In this document: positions 1,522-62,831 of the stretch, one piece after another
How positions within the stretch are numbered: position 1 is the first letter of the stretch
Layout: each line of letters begins with the position of its first letter
Assembly (NCBI GenBank): GCA_905182155.1
Contig: CAJJAX010000011.1
Coordinates: 1 to 64,000 of the forward strand
Direction of reading: 5' to 3'
Length of the DNA: 64,000 nt
Source of the DNA: an uncultured Pseudomonadales bacterium
GTDB lineage: Bacteria > Pseudomonadota > Gammaproteobacteria > Pseudomonadales > Azotimanducaceae
Position numbers and translations under genes: made by a program
Notes under the pieces: generated by a model
The model's database searches: none
The model's input: only the letters and a program-made list of their open reading frames with translations
What the model was told of the DNA's origin: nothing

Positions 1522-2538
1522 TTACCCGTAATGATCGGCCATCGCCTCAAGCGACAGGGGTTTGATCTTTGAGGCGTTACCGGCTGTGCCAAAGTCCTCG
1601 TATCGGGCTTTGACAATGCCCTTCATCGCGACCATCGATGCCGCCAGATATTTTCTGGGATCGAACTCGGCGGGGTGTTCGGCTAAAAACTGTCGGATTG
1701 CACCGGTTGAGGCAAGCCTTAGATCGGTGTCGATGTTGATCTTACGAACACCATGTCGAATCCCTTCCTGAATCTCAGAGACCGGGACCCCATAGGTTTC
1801 CGGAATCTCACCGCCAAACGCATTAATCACCTTAAGCCACTCTTGGGGCACGCTGGATGAACCATGCATCACCAAATGCGTGTTCGGAATTTTTTGATGG
1901 ATGGCTTTGATTCGCTCGATGTCCAAAATATCGCCCGTTGGCGGGCGCGAAAATTTATAAGCGCCGTGACTGGTGCCAATCGCAATGGCCAACGCATCGC
2001 AATGGGTTTGTTGAATAAAATCCGCCGCTTGATCTGGATCGGTTAGCATTTGCGCCATCGACAAGGTGCCGCTAGCGCCGGTGCCACCTTCTTCTCCGGC
2101 CTCGCCTGTTTCAAGCGAACCAAGACATCCGAGCTCGCCTTCAACCGTGACCCCGCAAGCGTGCGCCATGGCAACGGTTTGTTGGGTGACCAACACATTG
2201 TACTCATAGGATGCCGGCGTTTTTACATTCTCAGCAAGTCCTTCATTCATGATGACATCAATGGCTTTCAAGGCAATCGCGGAGCCGACTGGATGGCCGG
2301 ATGCAGTGAACCCATGCGGGAATTCCTCAATCGCCGCCAAAATCAAATGACGTAAAAAATTACTGCCCGCATACTTCCTAGCGCCGGCCGAGGCCTGCAC
2401 AATCACTGGGCTATCGGTTTCATCCGCGCTCTCCATAATCGCGCGAATCTGTTCAAGGTTATTGACATTAAAGGCTGGCACGCCGTATTCATGCTCCGCT
2501 GCATGATCCAATAGTTGCCGCATGCTCACTAAAGCCAT
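1522..2538 (-). CDS. fba: Class II fructose-bisphosphate aldolase with a foreign central segment
   Basis: The family cleaves fructose-1,6-bisphosphate to DHAP and glyceraldehyde-3-phosphate. Both ends match the Pseudomonas-type class II enzyme: [12 protein letters not shown] near the N-terminus, [39 protein letters not shown] and [17 protein letters not shown]. However, the expected segment after EEFPH is missing. That segment carries MHQDHG, with the catalytic Asp and a zinc-ligand His, and MMDGSL. In its place are about 30 residues starting [15 protein letters not shown], which resemble class III PLP aminotransferases. The replacement is in frame, so the 338-residue ORF stays open. As read, the protein could not bind zinc normally. 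It lies 4 nt downstream of pgk. A chimeric assembly is the likely cause. Confidence 0.9.
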
Positions 2539-2542
2539 CGCT

Positions 2543-3750
2543 TTACTCCTGTTTTGACTGACGGTTAATCAATTGGTCCTGCGCAACCCTCGCTTCAAGC
2601 GCGGCGATGGCTGGCAAGGTTTTACCTTCTACAAATTCGAGAAATGCGCCACCGCCGGTTGAGATATAACTGATACTCTCCGTGACGCCAAAGGTATCGA
2701 TGGCTGCCAGCGTATCGCCGCCCCCAGCCAATGAAAAGGCGGTGCTCGCCGCAATGGCCTCGGTCAGCGCGCGGGTGCCCCCGGCGAAGGCTTCAAACTC
2801 AAAGACGCCCAGCGGGCCATTCCAAATAATCGTGGCGGCCCCTTGAATCATCGGCAACACCGCCGCCATGGTCTGCGGCCCTAAATCAAGAATCATGTCC
2901 TCATCAAGAACCGCATCCACCGCTTTCACCACCGCTTGCGCGCTGGCATCCAATCGATCACTCACCACCACATCAATCACCTGCGGCACGTGGACCCGAG
3001 CGCTGATGCGCTTGGCGGCATCAACCAGCGCGGGCTCATATAGAGACCGTCCCACCCCATGGCCGGATGCCGCAATAAAGGTATTCGCAATACCGCCGCC
3101 GACGATTAAAGTGTCCACTTTTTGACTGAGCGCCTCAAGCACTTCGAGCTTCGTTGAGACTTTACTCCCCCCGACAATCGCAACAACCGGTGATTTAGGT
3201 TCCGCCAGAGCCTTGGACAGTGCCGACAGCTCGGCGGCCAGTAAGGGTCCAACACAGACCGCTGGTGCATATTGGGCAACACCCGCCGTTGAAGCCTGCG
3301 CTCGATGGGCGGTGCCAAAGGCGTCCATCACAAACACGTCGCACAGTGCTGCGTAGCGTTTCGCCAGCGCGTCGTCGTTTTGGCCTTCGCCAATATTCAT
3401 GCGCACGTTTTCTAACAGCGTCACGCTCGCGGCATTTTGTTGATTAGGCGCGTCATTCCCTAAGGCACCAGTGGCACCGATTGGCCCAGCAATTGTTCAA
3501 GAACTTTAGCCACCGGCGCCAAACTAACCTCAGTCTGATCCTGCAACGCAACGCCTTCCTTGGGACGACCTAGATGCGACATAACCATCACCTGCGCACC
3601 GTGCGCCAAGGCATACTGCAAGGTCGGCAAGGCTGCGCGAATGCGGGCGTCACTGGTCACCCGCCCGTCGTTCATCGGCACATTCAAATCCTGACGGATG
3701 AGCAGGCGCTTCCCAGAAATGTCCAGATCCGAAAGGATTGGCAGCTTCAT
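2543..3750 (-). CDS. pgk: Phosphoglycerate kinase (one frameshift as read)
   Basis: Transfers phosphate from 1,3-bisphosphoglycerate to ADP in glycolysis. The N-terminal part starts at ATG 3750 (MKLPILSDL) and shows DLNVP and MVMSHLGRP. The frame then breaks near 3461-3466, where it hits TAG at CTGGTGCCTTAG. The rest continues in another frame with [53 protein letters not shown] and the nucleotide loop [11 protein letters not shown]. One base restores a protein of about 402 residues, near the family length of about 387. The start is 1 nt after the tkt stop and fba follows by 4 nt, so the three form one operon. The gapB/epd gene often found between tkt and pgk in relatives is absent. Confidence 0.93.
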
Positions 3751-3751
3751 C

Positions 3752-5742
3752 TCAGAACAGGGCCTTAACCGACGCCACAATATTGTCTGCGCTAAACCCA
3801 AAGTGGGCGAGCACATCGGGACCGGGGCCGGACTCACCAAAGCGGTCTAAGCTCACGACCGCGCCATCCAGTCCCACCCACTTCCGCCAATAGTCGCCAT
3901 GCCCTGCTTCCACAGCCACTCGAATTCGCATTTCTTGCGGTAAAACCTGTTGCTGGTAGCTTGCGGATTGGGCCGCAAACACCTCGGCGCAGGGCATCGA
4001 CACCAACCGGGTCGGCTGGCCGCCAGCGGTTAAGGTCAGCGCGGCCTGGCGTGCGATCTCGACTTCAGAGCCCGTTGCAATGAGGATCGCGACAGGGGTC
4101 GTCGCCGGCTCAAACAGAATATAGCCGCCCTGGTCGATGGCCTTGAACTGCTCGGCATCCCGATCTTGGTGCGCCAGATTCTGTCTTGATAACACCAAAG
4201 CCGTTGGACCCGACCGGCGCTCGATCGCGGCTTGCCAAGCGCTCACGGTCTCAACCGTATCGCACGGTCGCCATACTTGCAGGTTCGGCGTGGTTCTCAA
4301 ATTGGTCAGCTGCTCAACCGGTTGATGGGTCGGACCATCTTCACCAAGACCAATGGAGTCGTGGGTATACACAAAGATACTTTGCTGCTTCATTATGGCA
4401 GCCATGCGTACCGCGTTACGCGCATATTCCATGAACATCAGGAAGGTGGCACCATAATTGATAAACCCGCCGTGTAGGGCGATCCCATTCATCATAGCGC
4501 TCATACCAAATTCACGAACACCGTAGTAAATGTAGTTGCCATTAGCATTATCAGCGCTGATATCTTTGGATCCAGACCAAATCGTCAGATTAGATCCCGC
4601 TAAATCGGCCGAACCGCCAAGTAATTCCGGCAGAAGCGGCCCAAAGGCATTCAAACAGTTTTGTGATGCCTTACGAGAAGCTATCTTTTCCATTTTTGCT
4701 TGGCACTCAGCGATATAAGCATCGGCTTTATCACTGAAATCTTCTGGAAGCTGACCACTGGTGCGTCTTTCAAACTCAACGGCTAAATCGGGGAACTCAG
4801 CGCGATAAGCATCTAACTGCTTATTCCACTCTGATTGGGCGGAGGCGCCGTTGGCCTGAGCATTCCAACCTTCATAGAGATCATTAGGGATCTCAAATGG
4901 GGCATGACTCCATCCCAACTGCTCGCGCGCTAACACAATTTCGTCAGCACCCAAGGGCGCGCCATGGCAATCTTCTTTGCCCTGCTTGTTTGGAGAGCCA
5001 AAACCAATAATTGTTTTACAGCAAATCAGGGTAGGTTTGTTTGGCTCACCTCTTGCAACTTCTATCGCTGCCTTAATAGCATTGCTGTCATGGCCATCTA
5101 CATTGGCAATAACTTGCCAGCCGTATGCTTCAAAACGAGCCGGCGTATCATCGCTAAACCAACCTTCGACCTCGCCATCAATAGAGATGCCGTTGTCGTC
5201 ATAAAATGCGGTTAACTTGCCTATTTTTAAAGTCCCAGCCAAAGAACATACTTCGTGAGAGATACCTTCCATCAGGCAACCATCACCGACAAAGACGTAA
5301 GTAAAGTGATCAATAATATTGAATTCGTCGCGGTTAAAGCGCACCGACAATATCTGCTCCGCAATAGCCATTCCAACAGCATTGGCAAAGCCCTGACCCA
5401 GTGGTCCGGTTGTCGTCTCGACACCAGGGGTCTCACCATACTCAGGATGCCCGGCGGTTATCGAACCCAACTGCCTGAAATTTCGCAGATCATCCATCGA
5501 CAGGTCATAACCTGTCAGAGTGAAGCAGGGAATAAAGCAACATGGAACCATGGCCATTGGACAGCACGAAGCGGTCTCGATTCAGCCAACCTGGGTTTGC
5601 GGGGTTGTGGCGTAAAATATCGTCCATAGGACTTCGGCATATCGGCCATGCCCATGGGGGCGCCAGGATGCCCACTCCCTGCTTTTTGGACTGCATCCAT
5701 CGATAGCGCACGCACTGCATTGGCAATCTTGGTTCCGTTCAT
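3752..5742 (-). CDS. tkt: Transketolase (N-terminal frameshifts as read)
   Basis: Thiamine-diphosphate enzyme that moves two-carbon units in the pentose phosphate and Calvin-type cycles. The start at 5742 gives [34 protein letters not shown]. Frame changes follow near 5640 (before AEVLW), near 5612 (before [23 protein letters not shown]) and near 5520 (before [14 protein letters not shown]). From there the frame stays open to the end for about 590 residues, with GHPEYG, GPLGQG, the ThDP motif beginning GDGCLMEG and the pyrimidine-domain motif YGVREFGM. The total of about 663 residues is normal. The centre is lower in GC than the 3' end: 40% by count at 4501-4560 against 60% at 3781-3840. It is the first gene of tkt-pgk-fba. 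Confidence 0.92.
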
Positions 5743-5929: not shown

Positions 5930-7083
5930 ATGACAGTAACAGCACTTTTACTTCAGAATCCGTCTCAGAAGGCCACCCGGACAAAATGGCCGACCAGATT
6001 TCTGATGCCATTCTTGACGCCATCATCAGTGAAGACAAAGACGCCCGCGTTGCATGCGAAACCATGGTGAAGACCGGTATGGTAATCCTCGCGGTGAAAT
6101 CACGACTGAAGCTTCGGTAGACATTGAAGACATTTGTCGAAACGGTAGTACTTGATATTGGCTACAACAGCTCTGAGGTTGGTTTCGATGGCGCGTCCTG
6201 CGCAGTACTCAACGCCATTGGCAAGCAGTCCCCCGATATTGCGATGGGCGTCGATGAAGGCGAAAACAAGGAGCAGGGCGCCGGTGACCAGGGACTTATG
6301 TTTGGCTATGCGTCCGACGAAACCGATGTGCTCATGCCAGCACCCATCACTACTCGCACCGACTGGTTAAAAACAGGCCGAGGTTCGAAAGTCGGACAAC
6401 TATCTTCTTGCGCCCTGATGCAAAAAGCCAAGTTTCATTCCGATACGATACAATGGTCATCCGTCGGCATTGATGCCGTCGTATTATCCACCCAACATCG
6501 TCCCGATCGTTTCTCTCAAGGACCTTCAAGAAGCGGTCATGGAAGAAATTATCAAGCCCGTGCTGCCAGAAAACTGGCTTCACAGCGATACCAAAGTACT
6601 TTATCAATCCCACCGGTAACTTCGTTATTGGCGGTCCCGGTCGGCGATTGTGGCCTGACGGGTAGAAAGATCATTGTTGATACCTACGGTGGCATGGCGC
6701 GTCATGGCGGCGGTGCTTTCTCCGGGAAGGACCCATCCAAGGTCGATAGGAGCGCAGCTTATGCAGGCCGGTATGTTGCGAAAAATATTGTCGCCGCCGG
6801 ACTCGCAAAGCGCTGCGAGATTCAACTGTCCTACGCCATCGGCGTTGCCGAACCAACTTCCATCAGCGTCAACACGTTTGGCACCGGGCGATCGATGAAA
6901 CTGCAATCGAAGCGCTGTTCAGGGAAGCATTTTGACCTGCGGCCCAAAGGCCTTGTTGAGATGCTTGATCTAAAACGGCCCATTTTTCTGCCCACCGCCA
7001 GTTACGGCCATTTTGGTCGAACGGAAGACTCCTTTACCTGGGAGCGAACCGATCGCGCCGAAGCCCTCGCCAGCGAGGTCTAG
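5930..7083 (+). CDS. metK: S-adenosylmethionine synthetase (many frameshifts as read)
   Basis: Makes SAM from methionine and ATP in the cytosol. The pieces of the protein lie in all three forward frames in the right order: [172 protein letters not shown] and [14 protein letters not shown]. At least six indels are needed to join them. A ribosome-binding AAGGA lies 8 nt before ATG 5930. The span equals the normal length of about 384 residues, so this is a normal gene read badly rather than an old pseudogene. It is followed by metF after 9 nt. Confidence 0.9.
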
Positions 7084-30306: not shown

Positions 30307-30935
30307 CGCGCGCGATAGGCCAGCATTCCTGCTAAATCGACGTCGATCCCAGAATCACGAACATACGCAATAATTTCATCAAAGCACACCAAGCTGTAAA
30401 CCGGGATGTTGAACTGCGCCTGCACTTCCTGAATCGCGCTTTGGGTGCCTTGCTGACCCCGTTCCTGACGATCAATGGCAACGATCACGCCCGCCACCTG
30501 CCCGCCGGCATCGGTAATGAGTTCAATCGATTCCCGAATCGCGGTTCCCGCGGTAATCACATCATCAATGATAAGAACTTTGCCTTTCAGTGGCGCACCA
30601 ACCAGTGTGCCTCCTTCACCGTGAGCTTTCGCTTCTTTGCGATTAAAGCTGTAAGGAATATTTCTTCCAAGACTGTCATTAAGCGCAATTGCTGTTGCAG
30701 TCGCCAAAGGAATTCCTTTGTAAGCAGGGCCAAAAAGGACATCAAACTTAAGCCCACTTGCTTCGATTGCTTTTGCATAGAAAATACCTAATTGTGATAA
30801 ATGACTTCCAGAATTAAATAGTCCTGCGTTAAAAAAATAAGGACTAATTCGACCAGACTTAAGAGTAAATTCACCAAATTTAAGGACACCAGTTGCTAAC
30901 GTAAAATCTACAAAATCCTTTTGATACTGTTCCAT
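30291..30935 (-). CDS. pyrE: Orotate phosphoribosyltransferase, low-GC 5' half
   Basis: Adds orotate to PRPP in pyrimidine synthesis. The 214-residue protein has [50 protein letters not shown] and the PRPP motif [14 protein letters not shown]. The frame is open, but the first half (about 30620-30935) is strongly AT-rich: 30% GC by count over 30781-31020, against above 50% in the 3' half. This change in base use falls inside the gene and continues into the end of rph, so part of the gene may come from another gammaproteobacterium. It follows rph by 14 nt. Confidence 0.96.
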
Positions 30936-30949
30936 TGGTTATTCCTAAA

Positions 30950-31660
30950 CTATGGCTTCATTTTTTGAATTTGAATTAATTCGGCAATCCCTTGCTCTGC
31001 AAATTGAATGATATTATTCATTTCATCTTTTGTAAAAGGCTCTCCTTCAGCGGTCCCTTGAATTTCAATAAAAGCACCCGCCTCCGTCATGACCACATTC
31101 ATATCCGTGTCTGCATTGGCATCTTCAACATATTCCAGGTCCAACATCGGCTGCCCGGCAACCACCCCCACTGAGACCGAGGCAACATGGGTTTTCTCGA
31201 TCACGCTGCTTTTCGGCAACTGATCCAGGGCATCAAACACCGCCACACAAGCGCCCGTGATCGAGGCGGTACGGGTTCCGCCATCGGCCTGGATCACATC
31301 GCAATCCACTTTAATCGTGTACTCACCCATGGTTTCAAGGTTAACCGCGGCCCTTAAGGACCGGCCAATCAAGCGTTGGATCTCTTGGGTTCGCCCAGAC
31401 TGCTTGCCGCGGGCGGCTTCTCGGCCCATCCGCTCATGGGTAGACCGAGGCAGCATACCGTACTCAGCGGTGATCCAACCTTGGCCCTTGCCGCGAAGAA
31501 AAGGCGGCACACCCGACTCCAAAGAGGCGGTACAGATGACTTGGGTGTCGCCGAAGGAGACTAAAACCGAGCCTTCCGCATGCTTATTGTATTGCCTAAC
31601 AATTGAAACCGGCCGCAGCGCATCCAGTTGTCGGTTAAGCGTTCTTATAAATGGAGCCAT
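30950..31660 (-). CDS. rph: Ribonuclease PH, low-GC 3' end
   Basis: Phosphorolytic exoribonuclease that trims tRNA 3' ends. The 236-residue protein has the family core [71 protein letters not shown] and the C-terminal [21 protein letters not shown]. Its last 60 codons are AT-rich (27% GC by count over 30961-31020), forming one block with the start of pyrE, while the N-terminal part has normal GC (57% over 31201-31260). rph-pyrE is a standard operon; yicC diverges upstream. Confidence 0.96.
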
Positions 31661-41335: not shown

Positions 41336-42700
41336 ATGGACTACGCCGCCCTGCTGATGTTTCTGGCCGTTTTCGGATTCCTGCTTCTCGGCTATCCGGT
41401 GGCATTGACCCTGGCCGGTACCGCCCTCATCGCAGCAGGCTTTGGCATCCTTGCCGGACATTTCGATTTGGCGTTTCTCTATGCCATGCCCAACCGCCTC
41501 TACGGTATTATGACCAACCAAACGCTGATTGCGGTGCCCTTGTTCGTGCTAATGGGCGTGATCCTCGAGCGCTCCCGAATCGCAGAAGACTTACTCGACG
41601 GGATGACCCGTGCCTTTGGCCGGATGCCAGGCGGGCTTGGGTTGGCGGTCTGCTTAGTCGGGATGATGATGGCGGCCAGCACTGGGATTGTTGGCGCAAC
41701 CGTGGTCACCATGGGCCTCATGGCATTGCCCACGATGTTAGGAGCGCAACTATCCGGCCAGTGTTGCTACGGGCACAATTTGCGCCACAGGCACCTTGGG
41801 CCAGATTATCCCGCCATCGATCGCCTTGGTGCTTCTGGGTGATGTCATTAGCAGCGGTTACCAACAGGCCCAATTGAGTCTGGGTATTTTCAACCCTAAA
41901 TCCCTTTCGGTCGGTGACCTGTTTGCAGGCGCGATTCTGCCTGGCTTTGTCTTAGTAGGATTGTATTGCTTACTCATGCTCACCATCGCCATCGTGAGGC
42001 CGTCGCTGGCGCCAGCAGCGAATCTGCCCAAGGTGCCACTGCGGCAACTTCTGATGAGCGCCTTGCCACCCCTGTCCCTCATCGGCCTTGTTTTAGGTTC
42101 GATTCTTTTTGGCGCCGCAACCCCAACCGAAGCCGCCGGGATCGGGGCGTTAGGGGCCTTCGTTCTAGCATTGGTACGCCGCAGCCTGAGCTTTGCTGAG
42201 TTAAAGTCTGGCCTCGTCTCAACCACTGAAACCACCGCCATGGTGTTCTTTATCCTTATCGGCGCGTCGATGTTTTCACTCGTGTTTCGCGGGTTTGGCG
42301 GCGATGAAGTGGTGGCGCACCTGTTTGATCAGATGCCGGGCGGCGTGACCGGAGCCTTGATCATCGTGATGGTAGTGATTTTCCTACTGGGCTTTATTCT
42401 CGACTTCATCGAGATCACTTTTGTTGTTGTGCCCATTGTCGGCCCCATTCTATTAGCGATGGGAATCGATCCAATTTGGTTGGGCATTATGATTGCCATT
42501 AACTCCAAACCAGTTTCTTAACACCGCCATTTGGCTTCGCCCTGTTTTATCTGCGAGGGGTTGCCAAAGATACCGTCAAAACCGCCGACATCTATCGGGG
42601 GGTCGTCCCCTTTATCGTGATTCAGATCATCTTGCTGCTGACCCTCGCGTGGCAGCCGTGGCTTGCAACCTGGTTGCCAGGAAAGCTTTACGGCGCGTAA
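41336..42700 (+). CDS. TRAP transporter large permease (DctM family, two frameshifts as read)
   Basis: Large membrane subunit of the TRAP transporter, about 11-12 helices. ATG 41336 starts MDYAALLMFLAVFGFLLLGYPVAL, with PLFVLMGVILERSRIAEDLLDG. Near 41757 the frame shifts just before the conserved VATGTICATGTLGQIIPPSI, then continues to FILDFIEITFVVVPIVGPIL. Near 42505 a second shift precedes LQTSFLTPPFGFALFYLRGVAK and the end WQPWLATWLPGKLYGA. About 455 residues when joined. Both shifts fall in the two most conserved blocks. Its last bases overlap the convergent dctP gene. Confidence 0.92.
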
Positions 42701-47029: not shown

Positions 47030-47209
47030 ATGCACAAAGTCATTTTCAAACACTGGCAAACGGGTGAACGCTTGGAGGTTGTCGGGCGCATAGATCCCCA
47101 ATTAAATCATCCATCATCTGACCGACTGGTGGTGACCAAACCCGATGGGACCTTTGAAGATATCATTAAGACCACGGTGATCGAGCAAACCGAGCTCAGC
47201 ACAAGTTAG
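47030..47209 (+). CDS. Small hypothetical protein, 59 aa
   Basis: The 59-residue product (MHKVIFKHWQTGERLEVVGR, then DPQLNHPSSDRLVVTKPDG and a TFEDIIKTTVIEQTEL end) is hydrophilic with a beta-strand pattern and no membrane segment. GTG 47027 and ATG 47030 are adjacent; I prefer the ATG. The duplicated GCTATCCGAG directly upstream offers a weak ribosome-binding site. GC and codons fit the host. It resembles short beta-hairpin housekeeping proteins but I cannot name a family. It stands alone between the methyltransferase-like gene and a convergent small membrane protein. Confidence 0.55.
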   Translation: MHKVIFKHWQTGERLEVVGRIDPQLNHPSSDRLVVTKPDGTFEDIIKTTVIEQTELSTS

Positions 47210-47334
47210 GGCGTATTGCTCGCAGCGCTCCGGCAGCTGACTTGATTCGTCCACACAGACCCGTAATCCAGCGCTAAGCGTTGCCGCTTGAAAGCGCTAG
47301 CAGGCGGTGCCAGCCAATCGTTGCAGCGCGTTCA

Positions 47335-47463
47335 TTACTCATCCTTGTAGTCTTGATCAAGGATCCCTTTTTCTTTCAGCGTTTTAATCAGTTTTTCTAA
47401 GCGAACGAACGCAACAACGCCCATAAGACCAAAACAAAATGCGGCTGCCGCCAGACCTTCCAT
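47335..47463 (-). CDS. Small single-pass membrane protein, 42 aa
   Basis: The 42-residue reading has a hydrophobic N-terminal helix (MEGLAAAAFCFGLMGVVAFV), then RLEKLIKTLKEKGILDQDYKDE, an amphipathic basic/acidic tail suited to a coiled coil at the membrane face. This layout recurs in small gammaproteobacterial membrane proteins of unknown role. Moderate leader (GGGTACGATT before ATG). Codon use matches the host. It is too short for most gene finders. Confidence 0.5.
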   Translation of the reverse strand: MEGLAAAAFCFGLMGVVAFVRLEKLIKTLKEKGILDQDYKDE

Positions 47464-47707
47464 AATCGTACCCTTTGTATATCGGTTAGTTCTGGGGTCT
47501 AACAAAGATAGAGCCCTGCAACGCCAGGATTTAGATGGTTCGGCTCATTGTCTTCATCTTTGCGATAAGAGACCTTGGCGAGGCAGATTATCAAGCGCTC
47601 AAAAAGAAATTGTTAACGCATCACAATCTTTACAAGAACAATCAGAATTTGTTCCCGGATAAGACCTACTCCACCGTCACCGAGTTGAATTCGTTGTACC
47701 TGTTTCC
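47464..47707. other. AT-rich gap of about 240 bp
   Basis: Between two small minus-strand genes. A plus-strand frame at 47535-47762 is open but overlaps the better supported minus-strand gene at 47708-47878 and lacks a ribosome-binding site. The base composition drops from about 47535 onward. Nothing else is supported. Confidence 0.4.
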
Positions 47708-47878
47708 TTATTTTGTATTTTTAGAAACTTCTAACCAAGTTGCAATCCATAGAACTGAATAAAGAGGAAGGATATGTTCCACTCCAACCCACTCATAAAA
47801 TATCTCCATTGCTACTGTCCCTATAATGAGAACCCCTTGAATTAGTACAAGTGTTTTTAGTGATATATTAAATTTCAT
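47708..47878 (-). CDS. Small low-GC membrane protein, 56 aa
   Basis: The 56-residue product begins MKFNISLKTLVLIQGVLIIG and has two hydrophobic helices (about residues 8-24 and 34-49, around LPLYSVLWIATWLEV) with an acidic link EIFYEWVGVEH. A clear GAGGA lies 7 nt before ATG 47878. GC over 47701-47880 is 32% by count, far below the glmS gene next door, so it is probably foreign or a chimeric join. No family recognised; it could be a small holin-like or unknown membrane peptide. It sits directly downstream of the scrambled glmS end. Confidence 0.5.
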   Translation of the reverse strand: MKFNISLKTLVLIQGVLIIGTVAMEIFYEWVGVEHILPLYSVLWIATWLEVSKNTK

Positions 47879-47908
47879 CTTTAGTCCTCAAAAGCGGTAC
47901 AACCAATT

Positions 47909-49726
47909 TTACTCGACAGTGACTGATTAGATTTCGAGCAGTACATCACTCCTCTTGCCCATGGTAGGCGAGCAATTGCAACGGCAAAACAGAATGGCGA
48001 TTGGCGCAACCATCGGATGCAGGGGCGGCAAGATAATCACTTGGGTATCACTAAAATCCGAAAAATCGGCTTGATGATCGGTAAAGACGTACAGCGCGCC
48101 GCCACGGGCGGCAACTTCTTGCAAATTGGACTTCACTTTTTCCAGCAGCTCATCGGTTGGCGCCACACAAACCACCGGCATCTGCTCGTCTACCAACGCT
48201 AAAGGCCCGTGCTTGAGTTCACCCGCCGGATACCCTTCCGCGTGGATATAGGAAATCTCTTTGAGCTTTAAAGCCCCTTCCATTGCAATGGGGTAATGCA
48301 GGCCCCGACCCAAAAACAAGGCGTGGTCTTTATTAGTAAATTGTTCCGCCCAAGCCTTGACCTGTTCATTAATTTCTAGCGTCTCTTCCAGTCGCATTGG
48401 CAGGTCATGCAGCGCCTGAACGAGCTCGCTTTCGAGTTCGGGTGTTAAACCATGGTATTTTCCGAGCGCCATCGCGAACATCAACAGATCCGCAAGTTGC
48501 GTGGTAAACGCTTTCGTGGACGCCACCCCGATTTCCGTGCCCGCTTCGGTCATGAGGCTTAGATCCGACTCCCGGACCAGCGAACTATTGGGCACATTGC
48601 AAATACAAAGGCTGCCTAAATACCCGAGGGATTTTGATTGCCGCAAGGCTGCTAAGGTGTCTGCCGTCTCACCCGATTGAGACAGGGTCATAAATAACGT
48701 GTTCGGCGCAACCGCGACAGTTCGGTATCGCCATTCGCTTGCGATCTCGACCTGACAGGTCAGCCCGGTTAAGGCCTCAACCCAGTATCTCGCCACCAAA
48801 CCACTGTAATAGCTGGTCCCACATGCAACGATCTGAACCGATTCAGCTTGTTCAAATAATAAGCCCGCTTCAACGCCGAAGGCTTGACTTAAAATAGTCG
48901 TTTTCCCAATGCGACCTTGGAGCGTATTGCGGATGGCTTTGGGCTGCTCGTAAATTTCCTTGAGCATAAAATGCCGGAAAGCCCCTTTGTCGGCCGCATC
49001 ATCGCGCGAATCCAGCGTCACCGCCCGACTCGCGACCGACGTTTCACGACCGCCGAAGATCGACACCTCGCTTCGGGTCAATTCAACCAGCTCGCCCTCT
49101 TCTAAATAAATGAACCGATCGGTGACCGGGCGCAAAGCCTGAGGGTCCGAGGCAATAAAATTCTCACCAATCCCGAGACCCACCACCAGTGGACTACCCT
49201 GACGGGCACCAATGAGTCGATCTGGAAAGTCACGATGCTGAACCGCGATGGCATAGGCACCCTCTAAACGAGTCAACGCCTCGCTGACCCCTTGCCGAAA
49301 ATCACCACAAGCCGCAACCAAATGATGAATCAAATGCGCCATCACTTCGGTATCGGTTTCAGACTCGAAATGATAACCCTGTTCGGTGAGTTCCTGACGA
49401 AGCGCCTCGTGGTTTTCGATGATCCCGTTATGCACTAAAGATACCGCCTCGCAAGACAAGTGCGGGTGGGCGTTGTTTTGAGTGGGCTTGCCGTGGGTTG
49501 CCCACCGAGTATGCGCAATCCCAATGGTCCCGACAGGCGCCGCCGCATGGCAAGTGTCTTTCAGCGCCTGAACTTTGCCAACCGCCCGATAACGCTTAAT
49601 GTGTTGATCGGCATTCATCACCGTCAGCCCGGCGGAATCGTAACCTCGGTATTCCAGTCGCTGCAGCCCTTCTAACAAGATGCCCACAACATTACGTTCG
49701 GCAGCCGCGCCCACAATCCCACACAT
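47909..49726 (-). CDS. glmS: Glutamine-fructose-6-phosphate aminotransferase (scrambled C-terminus)
   Basis: Makes glucosamine-6-phosphate from fructose-6-phosphate and glutamine, first step of UDP-GlcNAc synthesis. The glutaminase domain begins MCGIVGAAAERNVVGILLEGLQRLEYRGYDSAG with the catalytic Cys2, and has HTRWATHGKPTQNNAHPH and NGIIENHE. The SIS domains show ACGTSYYSGLVARYW, SQSGETADTLAAL, GVASTKAFTTQ and EISYIHAEGYPAGELKHGPLALVD. At the end, after HPMVAPI, several small indels scramble the sequence: LPLQLLAYH is readable in a second frame and the invariant final SVTVE reappears in the first frame at 47924-47912 before TAA 47909. It follows glmU by 3 nt. Confidence 0.95.
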
Positions 49727-51732: not shown

Positions 51733-53108
<1,376 letters not shown>

Positions 53109-53149
53109 GTCCGGTTCCTCTTAACTAAACCTTTAAAATTCGTTGGGCT

Positions 53150-54010
53150 TTAAACAGCCGCTGCGCCACTGACAATTTCTGACAGCTCTTGGGTAATCGC
53201 TGCTTGGCGCGCTTTGTTATAAAGCAGTTGTAATTCATCAATCATGTCACCAGCGTTGTCGGTGGCGTTTTTCATTGCTAACATTCTTGCCGCCTGTTCG
53301 CAGGCTTTGTTCTCTACAACACCCTGATAAACTTGGGATTCTATATAGCGAATCAGCAGGCCATCAAGTAATTCTTTGGCATCTGGCTCATAGATATAAT
53401 CCCAGTGATGATTAAGCCGATCATCAGCCGTCGCCGCTAATGGCAACAACTGCTCTACAGTCGGCGACTGTGTCATGGTGTTGACAAATTCATTGCTGAC
53501 GACAAACAGCTTGTCGATACGCCCCTCATCGAAAGAGTCCAACATGACCTTTACGCCACCAATTAAATCAACGGCGTTGGGCTCATCACCAACATCTTGG
53601 CTCGCGGCCAACACTCGGCCGCCATAAGTTCTAAAAAACTGGATCCCTTTGTTACCAATCAAACACAGGTCCGCTTCCACGCCTTGTTCAGCCCACTGCT
53701 TCATATGCGCAATCGTGGCTTTCAAAAGGTTCACGTTCAAACCACCGCAAAGGCCTTTGTCCGTGGTCACAACAATGTAACCCACCCTTGAGACCGCCCG
53801 CTCGCGCATGAACTGATGCGGATACTCACTGGCGGCGTTCGCCATATGGCTGATCACCGATCGAATCTGATCGGAGTAAGGACGCCCTCTCGCCATGCGC
53901 TCTTGGGCTTTCCGCATTTTACTGGCGGCAACCATTTGCATCGCGCGCGTAATCTTCTGCGTGTTTTTAACACTGCCAATTTGTTTTCTGAGCTCTTTTG
54001 CATTCGCCAT
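53150..54010 (-). CDS. atpG: ATP synthase F1 gamma subunit
   Basis: Central rotor shaft of F1. The 286-residue protein has the coiled-coil ends typical of gamma: the N-terminal [38 protein letters not shown] and the C-terminal [69 protein letters not shown] is also present. Lies between atpA and atpD. Frame intact. Confidence 0.97.
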
Positions 54011-54040
54011 AGCGTTCTCTGCTTCGCTGATCGAGGACGA

Positions 54041-55561
54041 TCAGTAGGTTTGAGTCTTCTTAAACGTTTCAATTGCTGACCGCATGGTCGCAACGACCTC
54101 ATCGGTATAGGCGCCTTCGCGATCGACTTGCGCCATAAAGTCGCCGTGCTCTGCGTGCATATAGCTCAGCAACGCCGCTTCGAAATCTAGGACTTTATCG
54201 ACGGCCACGTCTTGTAAAAATCCTTCGTTTGCCGCAAATAAAACAATACCCATTTCAGCAACACTCATAGGAGCGTATTGCTTTTGCTTCATCAACTCAT
54301 TAATTCGTTGAACCACGAGCTAATTGTTTTTGTGTTGCTTCATCTAAATCGGATGCAAATTGAGAGAATGCTTCTAATTCAGCAAATTGAGCAAGTTCTA
54401 GTTTTAATTTACCTGCTACTTTTTTCATCGCTTTTGTTTGGGCTGCTGAACCTACACGTGATACTGAGATACCTACGTTAATAGCTGGACGATCGCCCGA
54501 ATTAAACTATGTCACTTTCCAAAAAGATCTGACCATCGGTAATCGAGATCACGTTGGTTGGCACGAATGCCGAAACGTCACCCGCTTGGGTTTCAATGAT
54601 CGGCAGCGCCGTCAAAGAACCGGACCCGTTGTCTTCGTTCAGCTTAGCTGACCGCTCCAGAAGTCTCGAATCGCGAGTGCAAGTAGAAGACATCACCAGG
54701 ATACGCTTCTCGACCCGGCGGACGACGAAGCAGCAAAGAAATTTGGCGATAGGCCCAGGCTTGCTTGGTTAAATCATCATAAATGATGAGCGCATCTTCC
54801 CCGATGTCTCGGAAGTATTCGCCCATCGTGCAACCTGAGTAGGGCGCGATGTACTGCATGGTTGCAGGATCCGATGCTCCCGCCGCCACCACAATGGTGT
54901 TTTCCATCGCGCCGTGCTCTTCTAACGTCCGCACGACATTGGCAATGGACGAGACCTTCTGGCCAATGGCCACATAAACGCACTTAATGCCAGACTTTTG
55001 CTGGTTAATGATGGCATCAATGGCAATAGCCGTTTTACCGGTCTGCCGATCACCAATAATGAGTTCGCGCTGACCCCGACCCACAGGAATCATCGAGTCG
55101 ATACATTTCAGTCCGGTCTGAACGGGCTGATCAACGTGCTGACGAGCAATCACGCCCGGCGCAACCTTTTCAACGGGCGCAGTTTGCTTGGTGTTAATCG
55201 GACCCTTACCATCGATTGGGTTACCGAGCGCGTCAACAACCCGACCGAGCAATTCCGGCCCCGTTGGCACCTCAAGGATTCGGCCCGTACAGCGTGCTGT
55301 TTGGCCTTCCTTAAGCACTTTGTAGTCGCCCAAAACAACCGCGCCCACTGAGTCGCGTTCTAGGTTCAGTGCGAACCCAAACAAGTTGCCCGGAAATTCG
55401 ATCATTTCCCCATTTTGGACATCCGCTAAGCCGTGAATTCGAACGATCCCATCAGACACACTAACGATCGTGCCTTCGTTTCGGGCTTCAGAGGTCACAT
55501 CGAGCCGTGCAATTCTCTGTTTGATAATTTCACTGATCTCTGAAGGATTCAGTTGTTGCAT
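54041..55561 (-). CDS. atpA: ATP synthase F1 alpha subunit with plastid-like insert
   Basis: Nucleotide-binding structural subunit of F1. ATG 55561 ([20 protein letters not shown]) follows GAGGTGCGAAAC. Host-type sequence includes [69 protein letters not shown] small insertion near 54665 shifts the frame to [33 protein letters not shown]. From 54500 to 54317 the sequence is AT-rich, reads [20 protein letters not shown] in a third frame, and is plastid-like in codon use. The host frame resumes with [20 protein letters not shown]. Total span about 507 residues, near normal 513. Confidence 0.93.
54317..54500 (-). other. Foreign AT-rich patch inside atpA, algal-plastid/cyanobacterial-like
   Basis: About 184 bp encode, with no gap against the family, [18 protein letters not shown], then [19 protein letters not shown] and [18 protein letters not shown]. 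Gammaproteobacterial AtpA reads differently here (for example [18 protein letters not shown]). GC is 36% by count over 54321-54480; all but seven of about 62 codons end in A or T. Both are typical of chloroplast genes and unlike the rest of this window. The reading frame differs from both flanks, so both borders are abrupt joins. Confidence 0.75.
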
Positions 55562-60964: not shown

Positions 60965-62831
60965 ATGGTGGCTGCGCGCTTGGCTAAGCCGCCCTTGCGT
61001 TTTAAATGAACCAAGAGCAATGAAACTGCGGCTGGGGTTACACCCGAGATTCGGCCCGCCTGTCCAAGGTTCTCAGGCTTTACCTGCGCCAATTTTTGTC
61101 TGACCTCATTCGAAAGACCGGAAATTGTCGAATAATCTAAATCCAACGGGATGGCCAAGCCCTGCTGCGCTTTCAATCTTGAGATTTCTTGCGTTTGCCG
61201 GTCAATATAACCTTGGTATTTGAACTCGATTTCAACTTGTTCAATGACCTCTAATTCAGGCAGCGGGCACGCGGCCGCTGACAACAAATCAGGGAGATTC
61301 ACTTCTGGCCGCTTAATGAGTTCTGATAAACGATATTCCTTGTGCATCGGCTCGTTCAAAACAGCATCAACAGCGCCATTGCCCGGAAATACCAAAGCCG
61401 ATTTCATCTGGCTTTTCAGCACCTCGATCGCTTCCTGCTTTTGTTCGAATGCTTGCCATTGACCATCCGACAGCAACCCAAATTTTCGGCCGATTGCGCA
61501 CAACCGTTGATCGGCATTATCTTGGCGAAGGATAAGCCGATATTCGGCCCGGCTGGTAAACATTCGGTAAGGCTCTTGAGTCCCATTAGTAACTAAATCA
61601 TCGACCATAACGCCAACATAAGCTTGTTTATAATTAGGGGCTGCTGCTCCTTTACCTTTAGGTGTGCGTTTATTCCCGCCATTAGCCCCTGAGAAGCAGC
61701 TTCTTCATAGCCGGTTGTGCCATTAATTTGGCCCGCAAAAAATAGTCCGTTTAAATAAGCCCTTATATCTTGATACTTCAAATCCCTCGGTTCAAAATAA
61801 TCATATTCAATGGCATAGCCAGGCCGGGTGATGTGCGCCGACTCAAACCCGGGAATGCTTTGCAGTAGTGCAACTTGAACATCATAGGGCAGGCTGGTGG
61901 AGATACCGTTTGGATAGAGCTCGTGGGTATTGAGCCCCTCGGGTTCAATGAAGATTTGATGAGACGTTTTATCCGCAAATCGAACGATCTTGTCTTCAAT
62001 GGATGGACAATATCGCGGCCCAATCCCGTCAATCACGCCAGAATACAAAGGCGAGCGATCTAATCCGGCGCGGATAATGTCATGGGTTCGCTCGGTCGTA
62101 TGCGTGATATAACACGGCACCTGCTCCGGATGGTCACCCTCATTTGACCAAAATGACATTTTTGGCGTGGGCAGGTCCCCAGGTTGCGGTGTGAGCGTAC
62201 TAAAATCAACGCTGCGCGCATCAACCCTCGGTGGCGTTCCGGTTTTTAATCGACCCACGGCAAAGGGTAGCTCGCGCAATCGATCGGCTAACCGATTTGA
62301 GGCTGAATCCCCTGCACGCCCGCCACTCTGCTGATTTAAGCCAACATGAATAATGCCGCCCAAAAAGGTGCCAACGGTCAGAATGACCGAGCGGGCCAGA
62401 AAACGCTGTTGCATTTGCGTCACCACGCCAACCACCCGATCGCCTTCAACAATCAAATCATCAACAGATTGTTGAAAAATCCTGAGCCCTGGCTGGTTTT
62501 CCAATCGTGATCGAATAAATTGCTTATACAGCTGCCGATCCGTTTGGGCTCTTGTCGCGCGAACGGCCGGGCCTTTGCGCGCATTCAACACTCTAAAATG
62601 AATCCCTGCCGCATCTGCGGCTTCGGCCATAACCCCACCCAAGGCATCTATTTCTCTCACCAAATGGCTTTTACCGATTCCGCCGATCGCTGGATTGCAG
62701 GACATTTGGCCCAACGTCTCGATATTCTGCGTCACCAACAACGTTTGCGCGCCCATGCGAGCCGCCGCCAAAGCCGCTTCGCTGCCAGCGTGACCCCCAC
62801 CCACAACAATCACATCAAACGTCTCTTGCAA
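60961..62831 (-). CDS. mnmG: tRNA U34 carboxymethylaminomethyl modification protein MnmG (one frameshift as read)
   Basis: FAD-dependent partner of MnmE for cmnm5U34 on tRNA wobble bases. The TTG start at 62831 is 6 nt after GAGGGG; no ATG is available. Motifs: [121 protein letters not shown]. Near 61640 the frame shifts; the next frame continues [41 protein letters not shown] and ends with [15 protein letters not shown]. About 623 residues joined, normal about 629. mnmE is upstream, 301 bp away. Confidence 0.95.

Follow-up and report, generated by a model that had tools for sequence, protein, structure and literature searches.

An in-frame segment of aminotransferase sequence replaces the zinc-site stretch of a class II aldolase gene in a draft Pseudomonadales genome and likely reflects a chimeric assembly

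In the draft genome of an uncultured Pseudomonadales bacterium, the class II fructose-bisphosphate aldolase gene fba carries 90 nt of Rhodobacteraceae-type class III aminotransferase sequence in place of the stretch encoding the motifs HQDHG and MMDGS. We consider this segment to be a chimera produced during metagenome assembly or gap filling, not a domain swap, with a probability of about 0.93. The analysis covered positions 1 to 64,000 of contig CAJJAX010000011.1 (64,000 nt, here called the window). Two possible explanations had been offered in the original prediction, a chimera of assembly and a genuine domain swap. The chimera is now strongly supported, because all 29 aldolase loci from relatives retain the native stretch, the inserted segment is foreign in type, a word at the left seam occurs in both genes, and the contig is a mosaic; the real swap found no support.

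Results

An aminotransferase segment lies inside the aldolase gene. The fba open reading frame (1522 to 2538, minus strand) encodes 338 amino acids, with class II fructose-bisphosphate aldolase sequence on either side of a foreign stretch. The native N-terminal part (2314 to 2538, minus strand) was recognized by Pfam and NCBIfam models and by alignment with relatives, and the native C-terminal part (1522 to 2223, minus strand) by nucleotide alignment with relatives from the same genus. From 1527 to 2224, nucleotide identity to four of these relatives (G002, G003, G005, and G011) was 83 to 86%; outside the gap at the segment, the whole protein was 90 to 91% identical to those of four genus relatives. 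Between the two native parts, the alignment showed 90 nt (30 codons) in the window and 111 nt (37 codons) in relatives, the frame being preserved; the missing 111 nt are those that carry HQDHG and MMDGS in the relatives. Over the foreign segment (2224 to 2313, minus strand), the window differed from the aldolases of six relatives in the genus that were aligned with it; the boundaries of the segment are approximate because the letters at the seams are common to both genes. The swap had been predicted at 2220 to 2315, which was right to within a few bases, and the predicted exchange of a 37-residue stretch bearing the zinc-site motifs for about 30 other residues agrees with the codon counts.

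Domain searches returned both identities. Pfam assigned residues 4 to 320 of the fba protein to F_bP_aldolase (E = 8.9e-74), and a weak match to Aminotran_3 (PF00202) at residues 64 to 122 (E = 0.0086; profile positions 274 to 332 of 403) fell below the cut-off of that model (15.2 versus 30.5 bits). The best NCBIfam aminotransferase model on fba was NF005682 (residues 66 to 111; E = 2.9e-9). With TIGR01521 (FruBisAldo_II_B), fba scored 542.1 bits, above the curated cut-off of 496.35, and the intact aldolase of a relative (L011) scored 629 bits. Compared with the aldolases of this family, fba is alike on both sides of the segment and differs by the absence of the HQDHG and MMDGS stretch. The open reading frame and the F_bP_aldolase and FruBisAldo_II_B matches bear out the original prediction that both joins keep the frame and that the flanks are ordinary aldolase.

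The zinc site is kept in the aldolases of relatives. The motifs HQDHG and MMDGS of class II aldolases include a zinc ligand and a catalytic residue. The segment with both motifs is absent from the fba of the window. A comparison with the fba of relatives, suggested along with the prediction, found it intact in all 29 aldolase loci from the same genus, family, and order, and two solved aldolases, when aligned to a relative, likewise had both motifs. These 29 aldolases (L008 to L036) are the loci returned by a search of 58 genomes rather than all of its matches; the search matched an aldolase in 48 genomes, the host included, and none in 10, among them three incomplete members of the genus (G006, G009, and G010). 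The broken fba was the one aldolase of its family in the draft, and no second aldolase that would make it dispensable was found in this 72.7% complete assembly.

The segment is of Rhodobacteraceae type. The inserted residues correspond to the GFTxSGHPV...ALKAID segment of class III aminotransferases. Among the loci listed, the best match was L113, from a Planktomarina metagenome-assembled genome (MAG), which was identical at 29 of 30 residues and at 73 of 90 nt; the residue match is far beyond chance. The L113 protein belongs to class III aminotransferase subfamily NF004767 (PRK06105; 550 bits versus a cut-off of 517). A pattern made from the segment peptide matched at least 119 stretches, and 80 aminotransferase loci were listed; the segment was identical to these at 20 to 29 of 30 residues, and at 27 or more in 47 of the 80. 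Together with the NF005682 match, these loci confirm the earlier assignment of the segment to a class III aminotransferase, and it did not align better to an aldolase than to an aminotransferase. Titles of the 80 loci name Rhodobacteraceae, individual genera, or, in a few cases, only Rhodobacterales, Alphaproteobacteria, or Pseudomonadota; the genera named in some of the titles are presumably members of Rhodobacteraceae. Compared with the NF004767 aminotransferases, fba has only 30 of approximately 455 residues, and it lacks the whole aminotransferase fold, including the catalytic lysine.

Segment and flanks therefore belong to different taxa: a segment of Rhodobacteraceae type sits inside an fba that is close to those of genus relatives. 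Because none of the 368 other genomes sampled from the class of the host contained the segment (E ≤ 1e-5), and in the host genus a match of 53% occurred in 1 of 14 other genomes, the donor very likely belonged to another class than the host. The host itself is probably a gammaproteobacterium, judging by the solved ATP synthase alpha chains nearest to its own. No exact donor sequence was found among the matches listed, the best nucleotide match being the 73 of 90 above. Two nearer sources were tried and rejected. A peptide search of the draft matched fba alone, so the four class III aminotransferases of the host's own draft are not the source; copying within the window was rejected as well, as no repeats of 30 nt or longer were found there (seed 14).

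The two seams differ. The left seam (2314 to 2334, minus strand; the 5′ side in the direction of the gene) is a 21-nt word encoding AIEEFPH, which is common by chance to the aldolase and many aminotransferases. The peptide stands at the same site in the host aldolase and in many relatives, where it is followed by IPVVMHQDHG. It also stands just before the segment in 34 of the 80 listed aminotransferase loci (EEFPH in 78 of 80), and the exact 21-nt word of the window occurred in one of them (L112, from a Pseudorhodobacter MAG). Seam identities were computed on 77 donor segments from the 80 listed loci, leaving out segments near a locus end or with fewer than 56 of 90 matches. Left of the seam, the median match between these segments and the window was 18 of 24 nt, and it dropped to only 7 of the next 36 nt, which is about chance; the aldolases of 28 relatives matched at 16 to 21 of 24 nt and at 21 to 35 of the next 36.

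At the right seam (2212 to 2223, minus strand; the 3′ side), the aldolase restarts at KTPA and the aminotransferase match is short. The longest exact run across the join was 7 nt among the 77 donor segments, and the aldolases of the 28 relatives matched the window at 7 to 12 of 12 nt. Both joins are clean, and the frame is open throughout. We considered a plain k-mer join at both ends and rejected it, as it fits the left end and not the right; because a right-seam match of at most 7 nt is too short, a step beyond such a join must be assumed. Of the two joins, the right one has the weaker explanation.

The contig is a mosaic. The draft consists of 49 contigs, a number that, together with its completeness of 72.7%, makes it look like a genome binned from a metagenome. 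Comparing the contig with sister species along its length was the most telling check and revealed the mosaic. Over most of the window, the contig is collinear with one stretch of the sister species G003 at 73 to 84% nucleotide identity, and this identity drops abruptly within core genes. When 67 G003 open reading frames were matched in place, 16 were flagged and 11 were kept as frame changes, with o29, o30, o31, o51, and o57 set aside as short or weak; some atpA and atpD rows in this comparison are cross-matches between the two genes. In the first 22 kb, frame changes affected 4 of 26 window genes versus 0 of 26 in G011, 0 of 21 in G002, and 0 of 21 in G005. Foreign-looking runs were defined as those in which the window had at most 45% identity to G003 and every other relative at least 70%. 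By this rule, 10 runs lay in 6 of the 26 window genes of the first 22 kb, fba included, and none was found in the sister-species genes tested over the same span (26 in G011, 21 in G002, and 21 in G005).

Several of these places were examined individually. In pgk, a foreign-looking run accompanied by a frame break (3379 to 3501, minus strand) was 49% identical to G003 in amino acids; the values for three sister species at this site were 78 to 83%, and the run is probably another foreign patch. The N-terminal part of the transketolase gene (4541 to 5724, minus strand) was marked by its identity to G003, which was 50 to 55% in amino acids over 4541 to 5659 and 86% over 3758 to 4540, by a foreign-looking run at 5685 to 5724, and by a frame break near 5600 to 5660. 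No clear source of this stretch was found among 320 other genomes sampled (best match, 72%). An A+T-rich, foreign-looking stretch spans part of pyrE together with the end of the adjacent gene (30564 to 31050, minus strand), with a GC content of 0.372 versus 0.558 in the rest of pyrE. The pyrE part was 63% identical in amino acids to G003, compared with 89% for the rest of the gene; its best match among 320 other genomes sampled (81%) was to G166, from another family of the same class with small genomes. The draft gave 12 matches to tRNA-synt_1, compared with 5 to 6 in each of four sister species, and its class I tRNA-synthetase genes are fragmented.

Further irregularities were observed along the window. 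The atpD gene and the second half of atpA (51736 to 54670) are split over several frames; identity to G003 was 57 to 79% for atpD, 69 to 92% for the second half of atpA, and 99% for the first 300 residues of atpA. In mnmG, positions 61593 to 61811 combine a frame break, a low-identity run, and lower GC. The gene at 41682 to 42503, which we take to encode the large subunit of a TRAP transporter, has two breaks that divide it among frames. At 6055 to 6139, a gene that is presumably metK had a full-length identity to G003 of 62% and a single run at 38%; G011 and G005 were at 90%, and G002 was only partly covered. An alignment gap of 1,170 columns relative to G003 falls at 47175 to 48006, and the adjoining gene, which we assume to be glmS, matches G003 at 579 of 610 residues.

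Discussion

In the account of chimeric nodes in PMC8171044, an assembler working on a multi-species de Bruijn graph can pass between two species through a stretch that both contain. This account of metagenome chimeric contigs predicts conserved genes interrupted by foreign runs, as seen here. The fba case differs in two respects from the chimeras described there: their common sequence comes from evolutionarily similar species, whereas the word in fba is coincidental and joins different gene families, and the fba path goes back to the first species after approximately 90 nt.

We infer both that the join originated in assembly rather than in the cell and which step was responsible. An assembler or gap-filling step may have left the true path at the 21-nt AIEEFPH word, followed approximately 90 nt of reads from a co-occurring Rhodobacteraceae-type aminotransferase, and returned to the aldolase through a short overlap, the frame being kept by a one-in-three accident. 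Seam word, insert, and right overlap (21 + 90 + 7) would add up to approximately 118 nt, about one short read, a length compatible with a foreign read having filled a gap. Among a graph join, gap filling, and consensus patching, we prefer gap filling or patching, short of proof, because a k-mer join fits the left end and not the right.

A laboratory chimera formed before assembly, by template switching during PCR or whole-genome amplification, and then carried into the contig would also be expected to show a shared word at the left seam. However, the template would have had to switch twice, 90 nt apart, and come back to the same gene, and the resulting molecule would have had to be common enough to dominate the consensus. 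A single read misplaced into a gap is the simpler account, and we regard a laboratory origin as highly improbable. Recombination in the cell, real but leaving a nonfunctional gene, would have brought in approximately 90 to 110 bp from a Rhodobacteraceae neighbor through short shared sequence. This would be compatible with joins that are clean and in frame, and short-homology recombination could equally place the left join in a 21-nt shared word. The event would nevertheless have cost the host the sole aldolase of its family found in the incomplete draft, and comparable runs and frame breaks, absent from the sister species tested, are present in several unrelated core genes on this contig. It is not credible that so many core genes recombined independently, and such an origin is very unlikely.

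The open frame through both joins is the only point for a real domain swap that yielded a working hybrid with a new role. The 30 residues gained come from the interior of a class III aminotransferase, motifs conserved in the two solved aldolases and in every one of the 29 relatives are lost, and the contig is mosaic at other places too; a working hybrid thus has almost no probability. We put just as little weight on a natural, expressed aldolase-aminotransferase hybrid that has another function and whose zinc-site segment was replaced by short-homology transfer from a Rhodobacteraceae neighbor. An assembly-level cause, by contrast, accounts for the fba segment, the foreign-looking runs, and the frame breaks together; it is not credible that a living cell would have this many core genes broken and patched.

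The hybrid fba is therefore almost certainly a product of assembly, no new enzyme and not a real feature of the organism. Hybrid genes that stay in frame can slip through the annotation of draft genomes, as fba does by scoring above a curated aldolase cut-off, and such a gene could be mistaken for a new enzyme or for a loss of glycolysis.
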